Shown piece after piece: positions 18,896 to 27,313 of a DNA stretch of 64,000 nt. The translations under genes and the position numbers were made by a program. Under the pieces are notes generated by a model, which was given only the letters and a program-made list of their open reading frames with translations, did no database searches and was not told where the DNA came from. How positions within the stretch are numbered: the first letter of the stretch is position 1; each line of letters opens with the position of its first letter. The stretch covers positions 615 through 64,614 of the forward strand of contig NZ_JACYFG010000060.1 of assembly GCF_014803405.1 (NCBI RefSeq), in the 5' to 3' direction. The stretch is from Pelagicoccus enzymogenes (GTDB lineage Bacteria > Verrucomicrobiota > Verrucomicrobiia > Opitutales > Opitutaceae).

Positions 18896-18904
18896 AAATT
18901 GTCT

Positions 18905-19630
18905 ATGATAGAAAAAGCAAGCGATAACATAGCCCTGCTCATCGATGCCGACAATGCGCCGGCCGCTAAGATCAACTTCATCATCGCCGAACTGGCCAGC
19001 TACGGCAGCGTCAGCATCCGCCGGGCTTACGGAAACTGGAAGAAGCCCACGCTCGCCGGCTGGGAAAAGGTGCTGCACGAGTACGCGATCCAACCCATCC
19101 AGCACTTCGATATCGTGAAGGGCAAGAACGCATCCGACATGGCCCTGCTCATCGAAGCCATGGACATTCTCTACACCAAGAACGTCGAAACCTTCTGTCT
19201 CGTCTCCTCCGATTGCGATTTCACCCCGCTCGTCCTGCGCCTGAGAGCCGACGGCAAGCAAGTCATCGGCTTCGGCGACGCCAAGACTCCCGACCCCTTC
19301 GTGGCCAGCTGCACCCGCTTCCTCTACCTCGACGACGAAAAGAAGGCCAAGGTGAAGCAACGCGACAAGACCAGCTCCACCCAGAAGCTCAAGGGGGATA
19401 CCAAGCTCATGAACTTGCTGCGCAACGCCGTGAACGCCAGTTCGGATGACGACGGCTGGGCTCGTCTCGGCCCCGTGGGCAACCACATCCAAAACCAAGG
19501 CTCCTTCGACTCCCGCAACTACGGTTTCTCCAAGCTCAGCGAACTCTTCGCCGCCATCGACAGCTTCGAAACCAAGAAGCAGAAAAACGGCACCGGAACC
19601 ATCTTCTCGGTACGGCTGAAGGGGAAGTAA
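18905..19630 (+). CDS. NYN-domain protein with C-terminal LOTUS/OST-HTH domain
   Basis: 241 residues. The NYN (PIN-like RNase) domain covers ~5-145: IALLIDADNAP with the first Asp pair, GKNASDMALLIEAMD, and VSSDCDFTPLVLRLR, which together give the acidic cluster that binds Mg. Residues ~165-240 match the OST-HTH/LOTUS fold (LMNLLRNAV, GWARLGPVGNHI, NYGFSKLSELF), which binds RNA. This two-domain protein is widespread in bacteria and is thought to be an RNase or RNA-binding factor. The ATG at 18905 is preferred over the TTG two codons upstream. It lies 77 bases before the retron's first gene; whether it works with the retron is open. Confidence 0.88.
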   Translation: MIEKASDNIALLIDADNAPAAKINFIIAELASYGSVSIRRAYGNWKKPTLAGWEKVLHEYAIQPIQHFDIVKGKNASDMALLIEAMDILYTKNVETFCLVSSDCDFTPLVLRLRADGKQVIGFGDAKTPDPFVASCTRFLYLDDEKKAKVKQRDKTSSTQKLKGDTKLMNLLRNAVNASSDDDGWARLGPVGNHIQNQGSFDSRNYGFSKLSELFAAIDSFETKKQKNGTGTIFSVRLKGK

Positions 19631-19707: not shown

Positions 19708-22700
19708 GTGAAACTCCTGGAGCAAACGACCCTTTACCTCCGCATTTACTCGAAAATCGAGCTGTACCAAGTTGACCTTTGCGACTGCGGCGACGGCGAA
19801 TACGTCGTCAACTACCGTCAAGGTAGACTCGATACTGTCTACCGAGAAAATACCGCCACTGTGTTTCCAGTGGACCAAGCCCGAGCTCGCGAGATCTACG
19901 GCAACCTTGTAGCGCAGTACCGACGCAAGGGATATGTATCCGAAATTCCGAACATGAAAAATGAGGAGGCGCAGGCGACAGAACAATCTGTCGACGAGAG
20001 TGTCGACGAGCTCGATTCCCCTCGCGATACGAAGGCCGATTCGCTCCGGACTCAACGGGTGCTGGACTATTTGCGCAGCGCTGCGCAAGGCAAGCCGCTA
20101 CCCAGCACCTGGAAACTCTCACGTATCGTCTGGCGAGCTGGAGAGCTCCGGCTCGCTGAAGCGGTTTCCGATTTGCTCAAAATCGGAATTCGCGGAATTG
20201 ACTTGCAGGACTATTCGGTCGTCTGGGCATTGGCTCGGCTGCAGTCGCCAGATGCCGTTTCGCTTTTTGAAAGCTTGCGGTCTAAAGAGGCCTTTCCAGA
20301 GGCTCCAATATCTCGGCTAGCCACCATAGGTTTGCTGGAAGCGGCTTCCGTAGAAAAGAAAACAGCTCTTCGTTCCGAGCTCGAAGGGGCGTTCAACGCC
20401 GATCTCCGCAACGCCCTCGCTATGGATACTCCCGAAGAGATGGCTCTTGCTTTTGCTGGCGTGGGCGAGCGCGCCGAACCGCCCTACCTATTCCTTTTCC
20501 ACCTCTATCTCATTAGTTTCGAAAATTCGAAACTGAGAAAAGCCCTCCTCCTCCATCTGTCGCAATGCAAGCTGGAAGCAGGTTACTTCAAGCCGATCCG
20601 CTGGATCTTCAAGGCGGCCGAGCTACGCGACGACGCGGACTTCTACGCTTTGCTAGCCTATCGCTTCGAAACGGTTCCCCACTGCTTCAGCATGCCTGAA
20701 TGGGGCGACTACGTTTACCACAAGGGACAGTTCTACAAGTCGGGTAAAAGAGAGCTCACATCTCCGAACTCTAAACTCGCCTTCTCGAACAAGACGCGGA
20801 ACTACCTGCTTATTCGTGTGGCCCGCTACTTCCGCCGTCTAGGCGAAGCCGCACTGGCTGAAAGTTTCGTAAGCAGCGCCACGAGCTTCCTCAAGCGCTT
20901 CGATGACGCCTATGACTTTGGCGAAGCGAGTACGCATTCCCATGTCGACTACAGCGCCGGCTGGCGAAATCCAGTCACCGTCACCTTTCAATATGACGGC
21001 AATGCCCGCCTCTGCGCCTTCAACTACCTCCTCTACTCAAACAGTCGTAAGTACGAAGCTTTGCAGGGTGGCTTGAAATGGCGCGTCAAACCAGGCTTTA
21101 GCGATGGCGAGGAATTCGAAAAGGAGCGAGGAGAAGCGTATCCAGAACTTTGGAACAGAGCTCCGGCGCGAGTAATAGAGCTGCTTTGTGAAGCGAAGTC
21201 GGAGCGTGTGCATCGATTCGCTCGAAACGTTTTCCTCGCAAACGAGGATGCCTTCTGCCGAAAGGTCGAGACTCGGGATCTGCTCAACTGGTTGAAGAGC
21301 AGCTACGCCTCCACGCAGGAACTTTCCTTTCAGATCATCGAAAAGAAGTTTACAGCCGAATCGGTGGAGAGCGAACTTGCGCTGGCCCTCGTCAATAGCT
21401 CCTTTGGCCCCGCTCAGGAACTTGCTTTCAAGTGGGTGAACGAGCTTCCTGAAAAGTTCCTCAAGGACAGCCGCTTTGCCAGCGGCATCATTACCGCATC
21501 GAACGCGACAGTTCGCGATCAGGCCAAGGCCCTTTTAGAAAAGTATCCACTCTCTGGCGACGACTGGGACATCGTGATCACGCGCGTGCTCGCAGCGTTG
21601 CTGACCATTGACAGCCAAGGGCAAAGCGTGAACGAAATTGTCCGTAGCGTCGGTGACACCCTTTTAGCCGTTTGCCAGGAACGTCTCGCAACAGTGCACC
21701 TCAGCGTGATCGAGGACCTGCTTTCCCACTTATCCCCAGACTTGCATATCCTAGCGGGGCGCATCCTCTCGATCCATAGCATCGTTCCAGACGCCTATCC
21801 AGCGGGCCTTCTCGAAAAGGCATTGAACTCTCCACACCCAGAGGCACGACGTTTGGCAGTGGAGCTCTTCAACCGGTTCTCGGACGAAGAGCTGATGAAA
21901 CGCCAAGATATTGTGGCGAGTTTCTGCCTTTCCGAACATCCGGAAATCCGGGCTGCCGTTCGTTCGATCGTAGCCAAATTGGCGGAACAATCTCCAGCGT
22001 TTGGCGAAGCGCTAACCCAGAGCTACTACCCGCTGCTGCTACGCAAGGAGCGGCGGGAAGGCATGCACGAGGATTTGCTCAACATTTTGCGAGGCCCATT
22101 GGAGGGCTTTCTAAAAACAATCCCTATCGAGTACTCGTTGCGCATGCTGGAGTCCAAGCACAGGGCCGGCCAAGAGCTCGGCTGGGAGCTCCTCAGCCGC
22201 TTCGTCGACCTTGACAAGCTCAGCAACTCCCAGTTGGCCAAACTCGCCAATTGCGAGCTCTTAACAGTCAGAGAAGCGGCTCAGCGTTGGTTCGCTCAAA
22301 ACGTGGGTCGAGTAAAGGCAGATCTGGATACGATGCTGAGCATCGTCGATTCGGATTGGGACGACACCCGGGCTTTCGCTATCGAGTTTTTCAAAGAGAA
22401 CGTGACCGAGGACGAATGGACGCCGGAGTTGCTGGTCAGCCTTTGCGACAGCATCCGAGAACCCATTCAAGCCTACGGACGCGAGATGATTACTCGAAAC
22501 TTCAAAAAAGAAGACGGCCCGGAGTACTTGAAATGCCTCTGCGAACATCCATCAGCCGACATGCAGATCTTCGCCGTTAACTACATCGAAAAGCACGCCT
22601 CCGGAAACCCTGAGATGTTGCAAACCCTACAGCCCCTATTCACGAGTGTGCTTTCTTTGATCAACAAAGGTCGGGTAGCCAAAAGACGCATCTACCGATT

Positions 22701-22896
22701 CCTCGAAAATGAATCTTTAAAGTCGGAATCCGCCGCAAAACTCGCCCTTGGCCTTCTCGAACGTCAATCGCTAACCTCCACTCTGCGCGACAAGACAGAG
22801 TGCATTCAACTAATGGCCAAACTTTCCACTGTGTACCCGAACCTGCAAAGTGAACTGCAAGTCGAAGCCCTGTCAGCTGGAGGGACTCGCACGTAA
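19708..22896 (+). CDS. Retron type XIII ARM/HEAT protein with N-terminal WGR-like domain
   Basis: 1,062 residues from a GTG. Residues ~5-75 look like a WGR domain (LYQVDLCDCGDGEYVVNYRQ then GRLDTVY, ending VAQYRRKGY), but the Trp is replaced by Gln (RQGR). WGR domains bind nucleic acid ends, as in PARPs. From ~110 to the end the chain is alpha-helical with HEAT/ARM-like repeats (for example LLEAASVEKKTALRSEL, HPEARRLAVELFNRF, HPEIRAAVRSIVAKL). In type XIII retrons the set is RT, an ARM protein and a WHSWIM protein (from memory of published retron classification), so this is the likely ARM component. The stop codon and the next start share one base (TAATG), coupling translation. Confidence 0.85.
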   Translation: MKLLEQTTLYLRIYSKIELYQVDLCDCGDGEYVVNYRQGRLDTVYRENTATVFPVDQARAREIYGNLVAQYRRKGYVSEIPNMKNEEAQATEQSVDESVDELDSPRDTKADSLRTQRVLDYLRSAAQGKPLPSTWKLSRIVWRAGELRLAEAVSDLLKIGIRGIDLQDYSVVWALARLQSPDAVSLFESLRSKEAFPEAPISRLATIGLLEAASVEKKTALRSELEGAFNADLRNALAMDTPEEMALAFAGVGERAEPPYLFLFHLYLISFENSKLRKALLLHLSQCKLEAGYFKPIRWIFKAAELRDDADFYALLAYRFETVPHCFSMPEWGDYVYHKGQFYKSGKRELTSPNSKLAFSNKTRNYLLIRVARYFRRLGEAALAESFVSSATSFLKRFDDAYDFGEASTHSHVDYSAGWRNPVTVTFQYDGNARLCAFNYLLYSNSRKYEALQGGLKWRVKPGFSDGEEFEKERGEAYPELWNRAPARVIELLCEAKSERVHRFARNVFLANEDAFCRKVETRDLLNWLKSSYASTQELSFQIIEKKFTAESVESELALALVNSSFGPAQELAFKWVNELPEKFLKDSRFASGIITASNATVRDQAKALLEKYPLSGDDWDIVITRVLAALLTIDSQGQSVNEIVRSVGDTLLAVCQERLATVHLSVIEDLLSHLSPDLHILAGRILSIHSIVPDAYPAGLLEKALNSPHPEARRLAVELFNRFSDEELMKRQDIVASFCLSEHPEIRAAVRSIVAKLAEQSPAFGEALTQSYYPLLLRKERREGMHEDLLNILRGPLEGFLKTIPIEYSLRMLESKHRAGQELGWELLSRFVDLDKLSNSQLAKLANCELLTVREAAQRWFAQNVGRVKADLDTMLSIVDSDWDDTRAFAIEFFKENVTEDEWTPELLVSLCDSIREPIQAYGREMITRNFKKEDGPEYLKCLCEHPSADMQIFAVNYIEKHASGNPEMLQTLQPLFTSVLSLINKGRVAKRRIYRFLENESLKSESAAKLALGLLERQSLTSTLRDKTECIQLMAKLSTVYPNLQSELQVEALSAGGTRT

Positions 22897-24530
22897 TGAA
22901 CTTCGAATACAAGTACCACGGTAGCTCTAGCGTTAATAACTCAGGCTCCAAGACCGGGCTTTCCTTTGCTCCCGATACCCACCGCGAACCAACCTTCTTC
23001 GTCGGAACTCTTGATAAAAGTCTCCCTTTTCGCGAAGCGATATCAACGCTTCACGACGTGGTGGTCTCCGATCTAAATTGGAAACCGGAGGACAAGGAAG
23101 AGTACAAGCGTTGGGCCAAGAGCCAAGAGGACATTTGGATTGCCCAAGCCTTGGCAGAAGGCAAGGAGGCGGAGAAGAAGATCGATGCAATTCAGGCACG
23201 TATCAATGCGATGAATACTGAGCGGACTGCCATCCTAAGTCCGTTCTACAAAGCCCAACGCCGATATTTCAATTACCTCTACAAGGTGAACCGTGACTGG
23301 TGGTTCGTGCTCGACCCAGTGATCACCGTGCACCCTGACCAACTGTTTTTCGAGTGCTTTAGCCAAGACGAATCCAGCTACGGAAAGCTCTCGATTAGCT
23401 ATGATGTGTTCAAGAATATAGACAGTTTCGCTTGCGGCACGACTAACATAGATTACTCGGACGCCCTCTATCAGGAGTTTCAGAAGATTCGCAGCTACAA
23501 GGAAACCGACTTCAAGATCGATCCGAGCGGTTTCGAAATCAGCACCGAAAAGGAGGAAGACTTCAAGGAAATGAAAATCGACCTTCCTGACAGCTGGGTG
23601 CGCGGCTTTCTTCAGGTGAGTTCGGCCATGACCTTGCCGGCGACTCAGTTCGACTTGCATCCCATGGATATGCACAACATCTGCGCCCTGCTTATCCGCA
23701 ACAAAGAGAAGGTTGGGCCGCGGTCGCTCCGATTTATTCTAAAACCAGGAGAGCCGATCCGGGTCAGTGTCGACCCATGGAATTACGTGATCAAGTGCCC
23801 GCGTTCAATCTTCAAGGGCGAGCACGAAGACGAAATTCGCATCTGGGGCCGCCGTCGTCTGCTGATTCTTCAGCGCCTCCTCCCAATTACCAAACGTTTT
23901 CGTGTCACCCTGCTTGGCAAGGGCATGCCTTCATTCTACGAAGCGGATATGGGGAACATGACCTTCACGCTCGGCTTATCTGGCTGGACGGCAAACGATT
24001 GGTCGAAGCTTGGAAATTTCGACCTGATGGCCCCGCGAGCGGAAGTCGACCCAAGCACAGTACAGCTCGTTTACGATCGTCTACGGGAAACTTGGTTCGA
24101 AGAAGCCGATACACTCGCCCGCCGCGCGAATCTCGATCGCGAGACTGTCTTAGGCGCACTGTCGATTCTCACCCAAGCGGGCCGAGTGATTCTTGACCTA
24201 ACGACCGGAACCTACCGCGTTCGCGAGCTGGCAAAAGACCCACTGCCGCTTTCGACGCTGCGCTTCTCCAACGAGCGGGAAGAACGGGCATATCAACTCG
24301 TCGCTACTGGCAAAACCACCGTAACCGTTACGGAACGCGAAGGAAAACGGCACATGAGTGGGCAGACTGTATTCAATAACCGAAAGCACAAACCGCAGCT
24401 GGTTATCGATTCCGACGAACGCATTATTTCCGGTAGCTGCACCTGTAACTTCGCCCAACAGAACGGGCTAAGGAAAGGACCGTGTGAACACATGATCGCT
24501 ATCCGCATCGCCGACCAGCGAAAGCAGTAA
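22896..24530 (+). CDS. Retron type XIII winged-helix/SWIM protein
   Basis: 544 residues. N-terminal ~370 residues are of unknown fold, with coiled-coil-like charge at ~60-115 (KEEYKRWAKSQE, AEKKIDAIQARINA). A winged-helix-like segment lies near 385-450 (LVYDRLRETW, RRANLDRETVLGALSILTQAGRVIL, GTYRVREL). The end is a SWIM zinc finger with Cys515, Cys517, Cys530 and His532 (CxCxnCxH), which binds DNA or protein. This matches the WHSWIM component reported for type XIII retrons. It overlaps the ARM gene by one base and is followed by the structured RNA, which sits between it and the RT. As effector or sensor its exact job is not known. Confidence 0.87.
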   Translation: MNFEYKYHGSSSVNNSGSKTGLSFAPDTHREPTFFVGTLDKSLPFREAISTLHDVVVSDLNWKPEDKEEYKRWAKSQEDIWIAQALAEGKEAEKKIDAIQARINAMNTERTAILSPFYKAQRRYFNYLYKVNRDWWFVLDPVITVHPDQLFFECFSQDESSYGKLSISYDVFKNIDSFACGTTNIDYSDALYQEFQKIRSYKETDFKIDPSGFEISTEKEEDFKEMKIDLPDSWVRGFLQVSSAMTLPATQFDLHPMDMHNICALLIRNKEKVGPRSLRFILKPGEPIRVSVDPWNYVIKCPRSIFKGEHEDEIRIWGRRRLLILQRLLPITKRFRVTLLGKGMPSFYEADMGNMTFTLGLSGWTANDWSKLGNFDLMAPRAEVDPSTVQLVYDRLRETWFEEADTLARRANLDRETVLGALSILTQAGRVILDLTTGTYRVRELAKDPLPLSTLRFSNEREERAYQLVATGKTTVTVTEREGKRHMSGQTVFNNRKHKPQLVIDSDERIISGSCTCNFAQQNGLRKGPCEHMIAIRIADQRKQ

Positions 24531-24620
24531 TTAATTTTCTACTACGCCAAATTTTCCTAGCCAAACCTCTACAACCCATCTTTATTCCCATCACTGCTCT
24601 TTCCAAAAATCATTTTAAAA

Positions 24621-24851
24621 GAGGGACGACGAAGGCGATCCTGGCTTTGCAACCCGAGCGGCGTATCGCCGTTCATGCACACAGCCTAGCATCGCTTCAC
24701 TGGAACGGTCGTCACTGTGCGAACACGCATAGGTGTGTCGTTTACAGTGCCGACCCTGCGGGTCTAAACAGACACACCTATGCGTGTTCGCTTGAGTTGA
24801 CCGCACCAGTCATAAGAGTACGCGAAAGTCAGGCGCCTTCGTTCGTCCCGA
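24621..24851 (+). ncRNA. Predicted retron msr-msd RNA
   Basis: Lies between the SWIM gene and the RT, as msr-msd does. The flanking inverted repeats a1 (24623-24637, GGGACGACGAAGGCG) and a2 (24834-24849) pair over 15 bp with one bulged base. Next to a1 is a small hairpin (24659-24671, CGGCG loop CGCCG), a candidate msr stem. The msd candidate is a perfect 21-bp inverted repeat, 24719-24739 with 24771-24791, whose 31-base loop has further pairing (GTTTA/TAAAC and GACCC/GGGTC). The a2 end lies 48 bases before the RT start. The branching G is not identified. Alternative: the large hairpin could be a REP-like insertion. Confidence 0.72.
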
Positions 24852-24897
24852 TTTGGAAAGACATCCGTGATGATTCCGGAACAACAAGCCGATCCCA

Positions 24898-26463
24898 ATG
24901 AATCAATCACAACCCGCCACGCGCCAAGAGCTATACGAGCGCATCCGAGAAAGCTCGAAAAACGAGGTCATCCGTTCGGAGATGGAACGTCTCGGCTTCT
25001 GGAACCCGAACGCGCCGGAACCTAAAGTCGCTGACGATTGGCTCAAGGAATACGACCGGCTAACGAAGGAGCTGAGAGAGCTTCGCGGAAAGCAGGAGCG
25101 GATGAACAATCGCGATACCCTGTTGGCCGACATTCGAAAGAAGCGGATGGCTGAATCCCGAGAACGCCAAAAGGAAACCAAGCTACGCCGTGAGCGGGAA
25201 CGAATAGAGAAAGCCGAACGCTGGAAAAAACTCAAAGAGGAAGATATCCTCTATCTCGGCGAAGACGTATCCACTCAGCTCAACAAAAAGGAGCCACGTC
25301 CTGATCTGCTCGCCGAGCGCCAACTTCCAAACTTTGTGAATGCCAAGGCCCTCGCGGCCTCCATGGAGGTTCCCATAGGCGAGCTCAAGTTCCTCGCCTA
25401 CAACCGGAAGGTGTCCAAGGTTTCCCACTACAAGCGATTCTTCATGAAGAAGAAATCCGGCGGGCAGCGGTTGATTTCAGCGCCCATGCCTCGACTCAAG
25501 CGTCTTCAGTACTGGATTCTGCACAGCATCCTATACAAGATTCCCGTGCACGAGTGCGTTCACGGATTCGTGCCTGATCGATCGATCAAAACGAACGCCG
25601 CACCACACGTTGGACAAGACGTTGTCGTTAACATTGATCTCAAGGACTTCTTCCCCACGGTAAGCCAATCACGCGTACAAGGACTCTTCAACGCGCTCGG
25701 TTACTCCAATCAGATTTCTACGATTTTCTCGCTGCTCTGCACCGAACCTGAAGTGCAACAAGCTAAGCTCGACGGAGAAAGCTGGTTCATCCACCAGGGT
25801 GAACGCCACCTGCCGCAAGGAGCTCCTACTAGCCCAGCCATCACCAACCTGATCTGCTATCGGCTGGACTGCCGTATCAAAGGGGCAACCGATAAGCTCG
25901 GCTTTAACTACACTCGCTATGCTGACGACATCACCCTGTCTGCCTCAGGCGAAGCCGTATCCGATATTTGTAGACTGATCTGGCAGGTACGAAAGATCAT
26001 CGAGGAAGAAGGGTTCAACTTCCACCCCGACAAATTCCGCGTAATGCGCAAGGGCCGTCGCCAGGAAGTCACAGGATTGGTAGTAAACGAAACGCTCAGT
26101 ATCAATCGTAATACTCTGCGCAGGTTTAGAGCCTTGCTTCATCAAATAGAAAAGAGCGGAATCGAAGGTAAGTCCTGGCAAGGCAACAGCGTAAACTTGC
26201 TGAACTCAATCCAAGGCTATGCGGACTTTGTCGCCATGGTTAGGCCTGAAAAAGGCCAGCTGCTACAAGCTAGGGTAAAAGCGATTCGAATGGTTCAAAA
26301 ACACAAGCGCCGCGCAAAGCCTGAAGCTAAGCCAAAGATCCCTGCTCCGTTAGTTCCAATCAATAAAGCGAATGAGCTCTCTCATGCTGGTTCTGATCAG
26401 ACGCCGAAATCGTCTTCTGGGCCAAAGCCCTTCTGGAAAAAGCTGCTCTTCTGGCTGGATTGA
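24898..26463 (+). CDS. Retron reverse transcriptase (type XIII)
   Basis: 521 residues, longer than most retron RTs because of an N-terminal ~140-residue extension rich in charged helix (coiled coil ~50-115). Palm motifs: Asp247 in NIDLKDFF, LPQGAPTSP (305-313), and YADD (341-344). VTGLVVN (391-397) is the retron-type signature near the thumb. The RT copies the msd part of the RNA just upstream into msDNA and stays bound to it. Together with the ARM and WHSWIM genes this fits type XIII, an anti-phage system by family knowledge. The start ATG at 24898 follows the RNA by ~48 bases. Confidence 0.92.
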   Translation: MNQSQPATRQELYERIRESSKNEVIRSEMERLGFWNPNAPEPKVADDWLKEYDRLTKELRELRGKQERMNNRDTLLADIRKKRMAESRERQKETKLRRERERIEKAERWKKLKEEDILYLGEDVSTQLNKKEPRPDLLAERQLPNFVNAKALAASMEVPIGELKFLAYNRKVSKVSHYKRFFMKKKSGGQRLISAPMPRLKRLQYWILHSILYKIPVHECVHGFVPDRSIKTNAAPHVGQDVVVNIDLKDFFPTVSQSRVQGLFNALGYSNQISTIFSLLCTEPEVQQAKLDGESWFIHQGERHLPQGAPTSPAITNLICYRLDCRIKGATDKLGFNYTRYADDITLSASGEAVSDICRLIWQVRKIIEEEGFNFHPDKFRVMRKGRRQEVTGLVVNETLSINRNTLRRFRALLHQIEKSGIEGKSWQGNSVNLLNSIQGYADFVAMVRPEKGQLLQARVKAIRMVQKHKRRAKPEAKPKIPAPLVPINKANELSHAGSDQTPKSSSGPKPFWKKLLFWLD

Positions 26464-26491
26464 TCGCCAAAGATTAAATCGAACAACAATA

Positions 26492-27313
26492 TTGGGAAAC
26501 AGCCGTCTCCAAGACCTTTACCCAAAAAAGGGTGCCATCCTAGTTCGCATAATAGATGAAAAGAACGCTGCTTCGATTCCACATTCAGAGATCAGACTTG
26601 GAAAGCACAGTCGCTTCGTCTGCTTCATGCGAATCAGTTCCAACTTCAGGGTATCCTATCAACGGGGCCGCGAGCTGAAAAGACAGGGCGTGAAGAATTA
26701 CGCGGCCGTGCACTTTCGCTTACCCGATGATCAAATGGTATGGGCTGGCAAATACGCCTTAGAACACAGACATCTTCCCATCTCCGAAGCCATCGGCGAG
26801 TTCTTGAAACTGGAGGACCCCATGGGATACGAGTTCTACCTTGAGAGAAAAGTTTCCCCTAAGGAAGTCGTTCGCATTCGCAACCAGTCCCGCCCTATCG
26901 GCTGGCGCTACTCTCCTAACGCGAAAAGGACAACACCATGCTACTGCCCTGCGTGTGGGTCGATTGGGGAACCCAATAGCGCCAAAGCACGGAAAGAGTG
27001 GGAAGCTATCAATGAACCACAGCCGATGAGCATACCAAAAGCCAAGCAGATCATTGCTAGCTCTTGCGACACCAATGCTCTCCAGGATGCGATCTCGGCC
27101 TTTGGTGACAAAAGGAGAAAGTCCGATCCATCCTTCCTCCTTCGGCTCCTTGAAATGGAAGACGAACTCCTGGAATATACTACCCTCGAAGTCATCGGCA
27201 CCCACGCCCATCCCAAAACTCGAGAACTTTTGGAGAACTACGAAAGCGACGAAGAGGAAATCCAGGAGCTCATTCGCGAACTCCTGACCAAGCGTGGATG
27301 GAAATCAAACTAA
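26492..27313 (+). CDS. Unknown conserved zinc-site protein with HEAT-like C-terminus
   Basis: About 274 residues. The first half (ILVRIIDEKNAASI, SYQRGRELKRQGV, HFRLPDDQMVWAGKYALEH, IGWRYSP, CYCPACGS) fits a conserved family seen next to HEAT repeats in many bacteria; its function is not established. The CxC/CPAC cluster could bind zinc. Residues ~185-274 look like HEAT repeats (LQDAISAFG, LLEYTTLEVIGTHAHPKTRELL). The start is uncertain: the family begins near ILVRI, and the only nearby start codon is the TTG at 26492; the ATG at 26627 would cut the domain and the ATG at 26372 overlaps the RT. It sits 28 bases after the RT and may be an accessory factor. Confidence 0.7.
   Translation: MGNSRLQDLYPKKGAILVRIIDEKNAASIPHSEIRLGKHSRFVCFMRISSNFRVSYQRGRELKRQGVKNYAAVHFRLPDDQMVWAGKYALEHRHLPISEAIGEFLKLEDPMGYEFYLERKVSPKEVVRIRNQSRPIGWRYSPNAKRTTPCYCPACGSIGEPNSAKARKEWEAINEPQPMSIPKAKQIIASSCDTNALQDAISAFGDKRRKSDPSFLLRLLEMEDELLEYTTLEVIGTHAHPKTRELLENYESDEEEIQELIRELLTKRGWKSN

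Follow-up and report, generated by a model that had tools for sequence, protein, structure and literature searches.

A type XIII retron in Pelagicoccus enzymogenes with a predicted clamp-like partner protein

Does a cluster of three genes and one structured RNA in Pelagicoccus enzymogenes form a complete type XIII retron, and how might its reverse transcriptase (RT), RNA and two partner proteins act together? The cluster lies in a stretch of 64,000 nucleotides (contig NZ_JACYFG010000060.1, positions 615 to 64,614), here called the window, the coordinates of which are used throughout. We conclude that it is almost certainly a complete retron of this type: at 19708-26463, all on the + strand, a WGR-ARM gene, a SWIM gene, a structured msr-msd non-coding RNA (ncRNA) and an RT gene follow one another in that order, which is the order and strand that the initial annotation had read.

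19708-22896, + strand: gene 1, WGR-ARM protein, 1062 residues, GTG start; PADLOC WGR_XIII, 2.1e-289
22896-24530, + strand: gene 2, SWIM protein, 544 residues; PADLOC SWIM_XIII, 3.4e-231
24898-26463, + strand: gene 3, retron reverse transcriptase, 521 residues; PADLOC RT_XIII, 8.5e-186; Pfam RVT_1, 1e-23
24613-24859, + strand: msr-msd ncRNA, from inverted repeats, fold z -9.4 and covariation
24613-24637 and 24834-24859, + strand: a1 and a2 arms, the outer inverted repeat
24649, + strand: invariant G, the putative branching residue, conserved in 47/47 sequences
24719-24791, + strand: msd hairpin with its apical part; stem arms 24719-24739 and 24771-24791, 21 perfect base pairs, hypervariable

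Membership in type XIII is firm, and the locus adds another member to an already known retron type. The assignment was made through the PADLOC type XIII models. Among the 25 of 62 families listed for the RT, RT_XIII came first at 616 bits, followed by RT_other at 333, with other retron types lower. WGR_XIII was the best match of gene 1 (961 bits, residues 1-1054 aligned), the remaining three matches being HEAT-ARM_XIII models, and SWIM_XIII was the sole match of gene 2 (766 bits). The type proposed initially is thus supported by all three proteins, the RT ranking with the retron RTs and both partners being best matched by type XIII models. In NCBIfam, the top three matches of the RT were retron RT models, all under their curated cut-offs. 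The YADD and VTGLVVN motifs noted at the outset are present in the 521-residue RT, together with NAAPH, which we take to be the NAxxH motif of retron RTs. Likewise, the open reading frame (ORF) of gene 1 is GTG-started and of the 1,062 residues first described, and its ARM/HEAT character is upheld by a confident model (predicted local distance difference test, pLDDT, 87.3) of a HEAT-type solenoid similar to HEAT scaffolds. The gene 2 ATG and the gene 1 stop share one base.

The structured RNA recognized initially is real and fills part of the 367 bases that separate gene 2 from gene 3 (24531-24897). For the segment 24605-24860 the folding energy is -127.9 kcal/mol, compared with -76.9 +/- 5.4 in 200 shuffles (z -9.4). 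In an alignment of 47 ncRNAs, 32 of 39 predicted pairs changed on both sides, as did 27/30 pairs in a set of 36 sequences; the covariation score of these 36 was 0.601, against 0.196 when shuffled and 0.077-0.174 when slid, and although the structure was derived from the same sequences as were scored, which favours it, the margin is nevertheless large. A model, R1, built from 36 ncRNAs with the window sequence among them, scored the latter at 94.9 bits. Across 83/86 sources (L011, L022 and L056 were left out), R1-type RNA was found in 92 copies, in 76/83 sources. An Rfam scan of the window gave no relative. With R1, no second copy appeared in the window's genome (150 of 941 candidates scored), and no copies beyond the loci in 18 whole genomes (150 candidates scored per genome).

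Relatives were gathered with an alignment of five SWIM proteins as query, which yielded 80 named loci (of 474 confirmed relatives, the 80 best). Together with L007-L010 and the window these made 85 profiled stretches, that is, 84 relatives, in which SWIM was found in 85, ARM in 74 and RT in 61. The genome-contig search with the RT alone gave no relative, nor did viral contigs, for which the queries were the SWIM protein, alignment A2 and the RT, nor phage records searched for relatives of the SWIM protein; plasmid records gave one, from Methylobacterium bullatum.

The SWIM protein and the end of the RT

22995-23978, + strand: predicted clamp-like core of the SWIM protein, residues about 34-361; from predicted structure and Foldseek, without sequence support
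about 23094-23288, + strand: predicted coiled-coil insert in the clamp-like core; from predicted structure
24051-24221, + strand: winged-helix-like segment, residues about 386-442; from predicted structure, with weak helix-turn-helix (HTH) matches in few relatives
24420-24500, + strand: SWIM zinc finger, residues 509-535; Pfam SWIM 0.0053, below cut-off, and matches of relatives
26419-26460, + strand: aromatic C-terminal tip of the RT, residues 508-521, following a low-complexity linker

In the model of the SWIM protein, two consecutive sets of sheets and helices, into which a coiled coil is inserted, are followed by a winged helix and lastly by the finger. The finger, placed at the C-terminus from the start, is there (C515-x-C517 ... 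C530-x-H532), and Pfam matches it in 50/52 relatives at E <= 0.1. The winged helix held as a predicted segment (helices 386-399, 404-411 and 415-427; strands 431-434 and 439-442), Pfam HTH matches to it being weak and found in few relatives only. The part preceding it probably has a two-domain PCNA-like fold, as judged by structure comparison. In the PDB, Foldseek found 473 matches with E <= 0.001 (best E 9.6e-10, target template modelling scores up to 0.67), and each of the 50 listed was a PCNA entry by title; viral PCNAs and phage clamps topped the list from the viral library, where 79 matches reached <= 0.001. The SWIM protein is 56-65% identical to the window copy across a 52-sequence alignment (26-34% for WGR-ARM, 40 sequences), and its best conserved parts are a connector at 228-249 (0.939) and a segment at 362-384 (0.881). 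In PCNA, the elements matching these two shape the pocket for partner peptides.

A candidate for such a peptide is found at the end of the RT. We compared 60 RTs (the cut RT of L076 was left out; groups were hand-assigned from record titles) and found that those outside cyanobacteria, with the L010 variant set apart, all (46/46) carry tryptophan at their end, behind a long linker. Excluding L007 (n=45), tryptophan occupied position -4 in 36/45 and -5 in 33/45, and made up 101/360 residues in the final positions vs 13/2070 in the linkers. Ends such as KKPWWKFW, SDWWSIW and KKWWKLF are typical; that of the window RT is KPFWKKLLFWLD. The RT of a Methylobacterium type XIII locus (L007:7977-9785) has a strongly hydrophobic C-terminus that is probably membrane-spanning.

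Two main readings of the tip can be weighed, docking on the clamp-like partner and binding to membrane. Docking on the clamp-like SWIM core is plausible. Several observations speak against it: the tip is absent from the cyanobacterial RTs (0/13) and also from the L010 RT; cyanobacterial SWIM proteins retain 228-249 and 362-384 though their RTs have no tip, and of seven SWIM columns diagnostic of cyanobacteria none falls inside these two parts; and the L007 RT bears, instead of the tip, a strongly hydrophobic end that suits membrane binding. The tip could instead be a membrane-targeting peptide, tethering the retron at the inner membrane to sense or act there, much as C-terminal amphipathic helices of MinD and FtsA bind membrane. 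Longer, amphipathic-looking ends in the window (KPFWKKLLFWLD), L012 (KSFWEKLMFWKG), L036 (KSFLQKLLFWRKG) and L009 (GLLGKIRRWFGGK), the hydrophobicity of the L007 end (19-residue mean 2.7) and the lysines that precede many tips (K at -7 in 30/45) are all consistent with this. However, the context is acidic elsewhere (DSDWWSIW, DDKAWWEVV, DDWWNIFS), and a clamp-like partner offers an alternative reason for an aromatic C-terminal peptide; we consider membrane targeting possible but doubtful.

The PCNA likeness might also stem from the moderate quality of the model and from how common beta-sheet repeats are, the core then having some other DNA-binding fold. Model quality and sequence searches lend this some weight and count against a clamp-like core: the single model is of moderate quality (pLDDT 66.4; predicted template modelling score, pTM, 0.61), no Pfam clamp family was found in 52 SWIM-protein members, a PDB profile search with the SWIM protein returned no clamp, and homology of the core to DnaN was sought and not found (hhalign against 14 DnaN proteins, 4.7%). 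Because sequence methods show no homology, we call the core clamp-like and not a clamp. A Foldseek E near 1e-9, with a single fold family across the 50 listed matches and clamps also at the top of the viral library, nevertheless makes such an artefact unlikely. That the tip binds instead the host sliding clamp DnaN, coupling the retron to host or phage replication, is improbable: DnaN is present in 19/19 relatives searched and some tips (WKLF, WKIF) finish in two hydrophobic residues, as clamp-binding peptides do, but the glutamine of their usual motif, QLSLF, is not seen at the tips.

Variable stems and ncRNA arrays

Two or more ncRNA copies were found in 13 loci, with four at L074 and three at L013. 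We compared copies within 11/13 of these loci (18 within-locus pairs; copies L032:9724 and L054:3926 were left out). The flanks were identical at 2292/2736 positions (84%) and the stem arms at 437/866 (50%), the latter against baselines of 41% between unrelated loci and 36% for shuffled arms. Arms were less alike than flanks in 17/18 pairs, the exception being the L042 pair (88% for both). The diverged stem arms were still self-complementary (84-100%). All 11 compared loci are metagenome-assembled by title, so assembly error is not wholly excluded. Each copy tended to pair with its own outer arms, the a1/a2 match having a median of 22 for own arms (n=25) vs 13 for those of neighbouring copies (n=36), with overlapping ranges (own 10-34, cross 8-23). 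The tandem loci, with two to four copies, are L074:9791-10678, L013:9780-10728, L014, L019, L026, L036, L042, L045, L051, L057 and L059. Our literature search found no paper on tandem retron ncRNAs, partly judged by title, which does not show their absence from print.

Variable as they are, the stems prefer certain words. Among 59 clustered arms, GGTA/TACC occurred in 30 (6.4 expected from mononucleotide shuffles) and CTACC/GGTAG in 18 (1.9 expected), for which a protein recognition site would be the natural reading. One fixed motif common to the stems was rejected, little information being found per position in 72 segments (excluded were six anchorless copies, two weak ones, those exceeding 130 bases and segments that were repeated); the word preference is what was left. 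The idea that stems avoid host-common words was also rejected: 3/59 arms were rarer than 95% of shuffles in own-locus 4-mers, about chance.

Partner genes, distribution and neighbours

19708-19932, + strand: WGR-like N-terminal domain of gene 1, residues about 1-75; model strands and helix at 2-73, alignment, degenerate signature

The WGR part of gene 1 had been put forward with an intact motif, which stood in part: PADLOC WGR_XIII covers the protein from its first residue, but the signature is degenerate (NYRQGRL, where most relatives have NFRYGRRG or something similar) and the window protein has no WGR match in Pfam. The degenerate signature counts against the mechanism proposed below, as does the absence of any catalytic domain in Pfam; because of the latter, the toxicity of the gene 1 protein is a guess. 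In a genome of the window's family (L010:26-9768), WGR sits on a helicase-restriction endonuclease protein (Pfam WGR 2.2e-16; PADLOC PDC-S37 1.3e-207), with a matchless 624-residue protein, SWIM_XIII and an RT_XIII without tip as the other genes; R1 detects no ncRNA there. L068 encodes a further WGR protein, part of which resembles a beta-propeller. We infer from such variants that WGR recruits variable partners to a core of RT, SWIM protein and multicopy single-stranded DNA (msDNA).

Operon layout varies further. L068:2548-12468 is an enlarged Cytophagales-type operon with the second WGR protein and a DUF4034/TPR protein, L052 and L088 being of similar length; another enlarged operon of this type, L053, encodes a transglutaminase-like protein. 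At L034, L040 and L071 the RT lies 5' of ARM, rather than 3' of SWIM.

The retron is patchily distributed around the window. RT_XIII at E <= 1e-60 was found in 3/57 genomes, the window's included (G053, carrying L011, was weak and without a SWIM match), and in 0/7 other genomes of the genus; SWIM_XIII was found in 3/387 genomes of the phylum, again including the window's. In G007, a relative from the genus, about 4.7 kb of different genes lie between the NYN gene, on the upstream side, and an ORF related to the downstream one; as other genes occupy the same place, the retron lies in a variable region.

The RT was absent from 24 locus stretches, 15 of them cyanobacterial, and RT_XIII was found elsewhere in 15/15 of these cyanobacterial genomes, which means that there the parts are scattered and, it seems, retained. 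Three of the cyanobacterial loci, those in which distance was assessed, lie on very long contigs, with RT_XIII apparently over a megabase away. Copies of the ncRNA are present in 11/15 of the cyanobacterial stretches without RT. That type XIII is, at least in cyanobacteria, a resident device of the cell and not a defence, or not only that, would fit this 15/15 figure, but it is very unlikely given the patchy occurrence in the window's group, the different genes at the same place in G007 and the hypervariable stems. The cyanobacterial loci with the RT elsewhere are L023, L028, L032, L033, L038, L043, L049, L050, L054, L065, L079, L081, L083, L084 and L087.

Directly 5' of the retron, 18899-19630 encodes an NYN-domain protein with an OST-HTH/LOTUS domain, present in 6/8 genomes of the genus. 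On the 3' side, the ORF at 26555-27313 (region 26372-27313) has no Pfam or PADLOC match and its start looks altered. We rejected it as a retron part: its relatives occur only in loci fetched for the ORF or its place, and in G007, which has the upstream gene too, it lies close to that gene with no retron present. Three relatives of this ORF cluster in G007 (L129:6769-10337). PADLOC gave no match in the 12 neighbouring ORFs scanned, and 28568-29143 matches the type VI secretion system Hcp family (8.1e-34).

A working model and its relation to known systems

How might these parts work together? Our literature search found no account of the type XIII mechanism, the original classification papers being outside its reach, and no paper joining retron with WHSWIM, with WGR, or 'type XIII' with SWIM, which does not show absence from print. 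Papers with both 'retron' and 'sliding clamp' concern other subjects by title. A match to type XIII is mentioned in Variovorax in PMC11953036, and PMC12548924 holds none of the type XIII or tandem-ncRNA terms sought, bar 'winged' once.

We tentatively propose, at somewhat less than even odds, that WGR-ARM is held in check by a sensor made up of the RT, the msDNA and the clamp-like protein until a phage trigger frees it. This sensor-effector scheme is a working model that joins the observed genes, covarying RNA, conserved RT tip and variable stem with the predicted clamp-like fold; every contact, the trigger and the identity of the toxic protein are what we infer. The RT would copy msd into branched msDNA, the duplex stem of which would bear a degenerate recognition element. 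The aromatic C-terminal peptide of the RT would dock on the PCNA-like SWIM core, as polymerases do on clamps, and this core together with the winged helix would hold the msDNA, WGR-ARM being kept inactive via its WGR domain. By binding or altering the msDNA stem, a phage protein would then open the complex and release WGR-ARM, the probable effector, which would arrest the cell.

A bolder idea, rather doubtful at present, is that type XIII is a self-contained polymerase-clamp-template device: the RT would be tethered by its aromatic peptide to a PCNA-like protein holding the msDNA, the stem would be an exchangeable cassette, and ncRNA arrays would provide several sensors per RT/effector set, some genomes storing cassettes next to one another, each a complete ncRNA with its own a1/a2 arms. 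The analysis offers three testable leads: the clamp-like SWIM protein, the peptide at the RT end that may dock or anchor, and diversified msDNA stems, including ncRNA arrays. If the clamp reading is true, the RT of a defence system acts together with a PCNA-like factor; arrays that prove to be sensor sets would illustrate a way for a retron to respond to more triggers.

The closest comparison for the trigger is the type IX retron Kva2, in which, according to PMC13405049, the msDNA stem loop serves as the sensor and is bound by a winged-helix protein, and a phage HTH protein is the trigger. Our best guess, by analogy, is that the trigger logic of type XIII is similar. Both systems have two partner proteins, one of them with a winged helix, whereas type IX has a HEPN RNase and no HEPN domain was found here, type XIII having instead WGR-ARM and the clamp-like SWIM protein. 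Compared with PCNA and other sliding clamps, the SWIM core is alike in its predicted two-domain fold, but the protein has no detectable sequence similarity to them and adds a coiled coil, a winged helix and a SWIM finger. Compared with type XIII itself, all three proteins, the gene order and the ncRNA ahead of the RT are alike; the window copy differs in its degenerate WGR signature and is otherwise an ordinary member, and the predicted clamp-like core, the RT tip and the variable stem are features of type XIII generally, not only of this copy.

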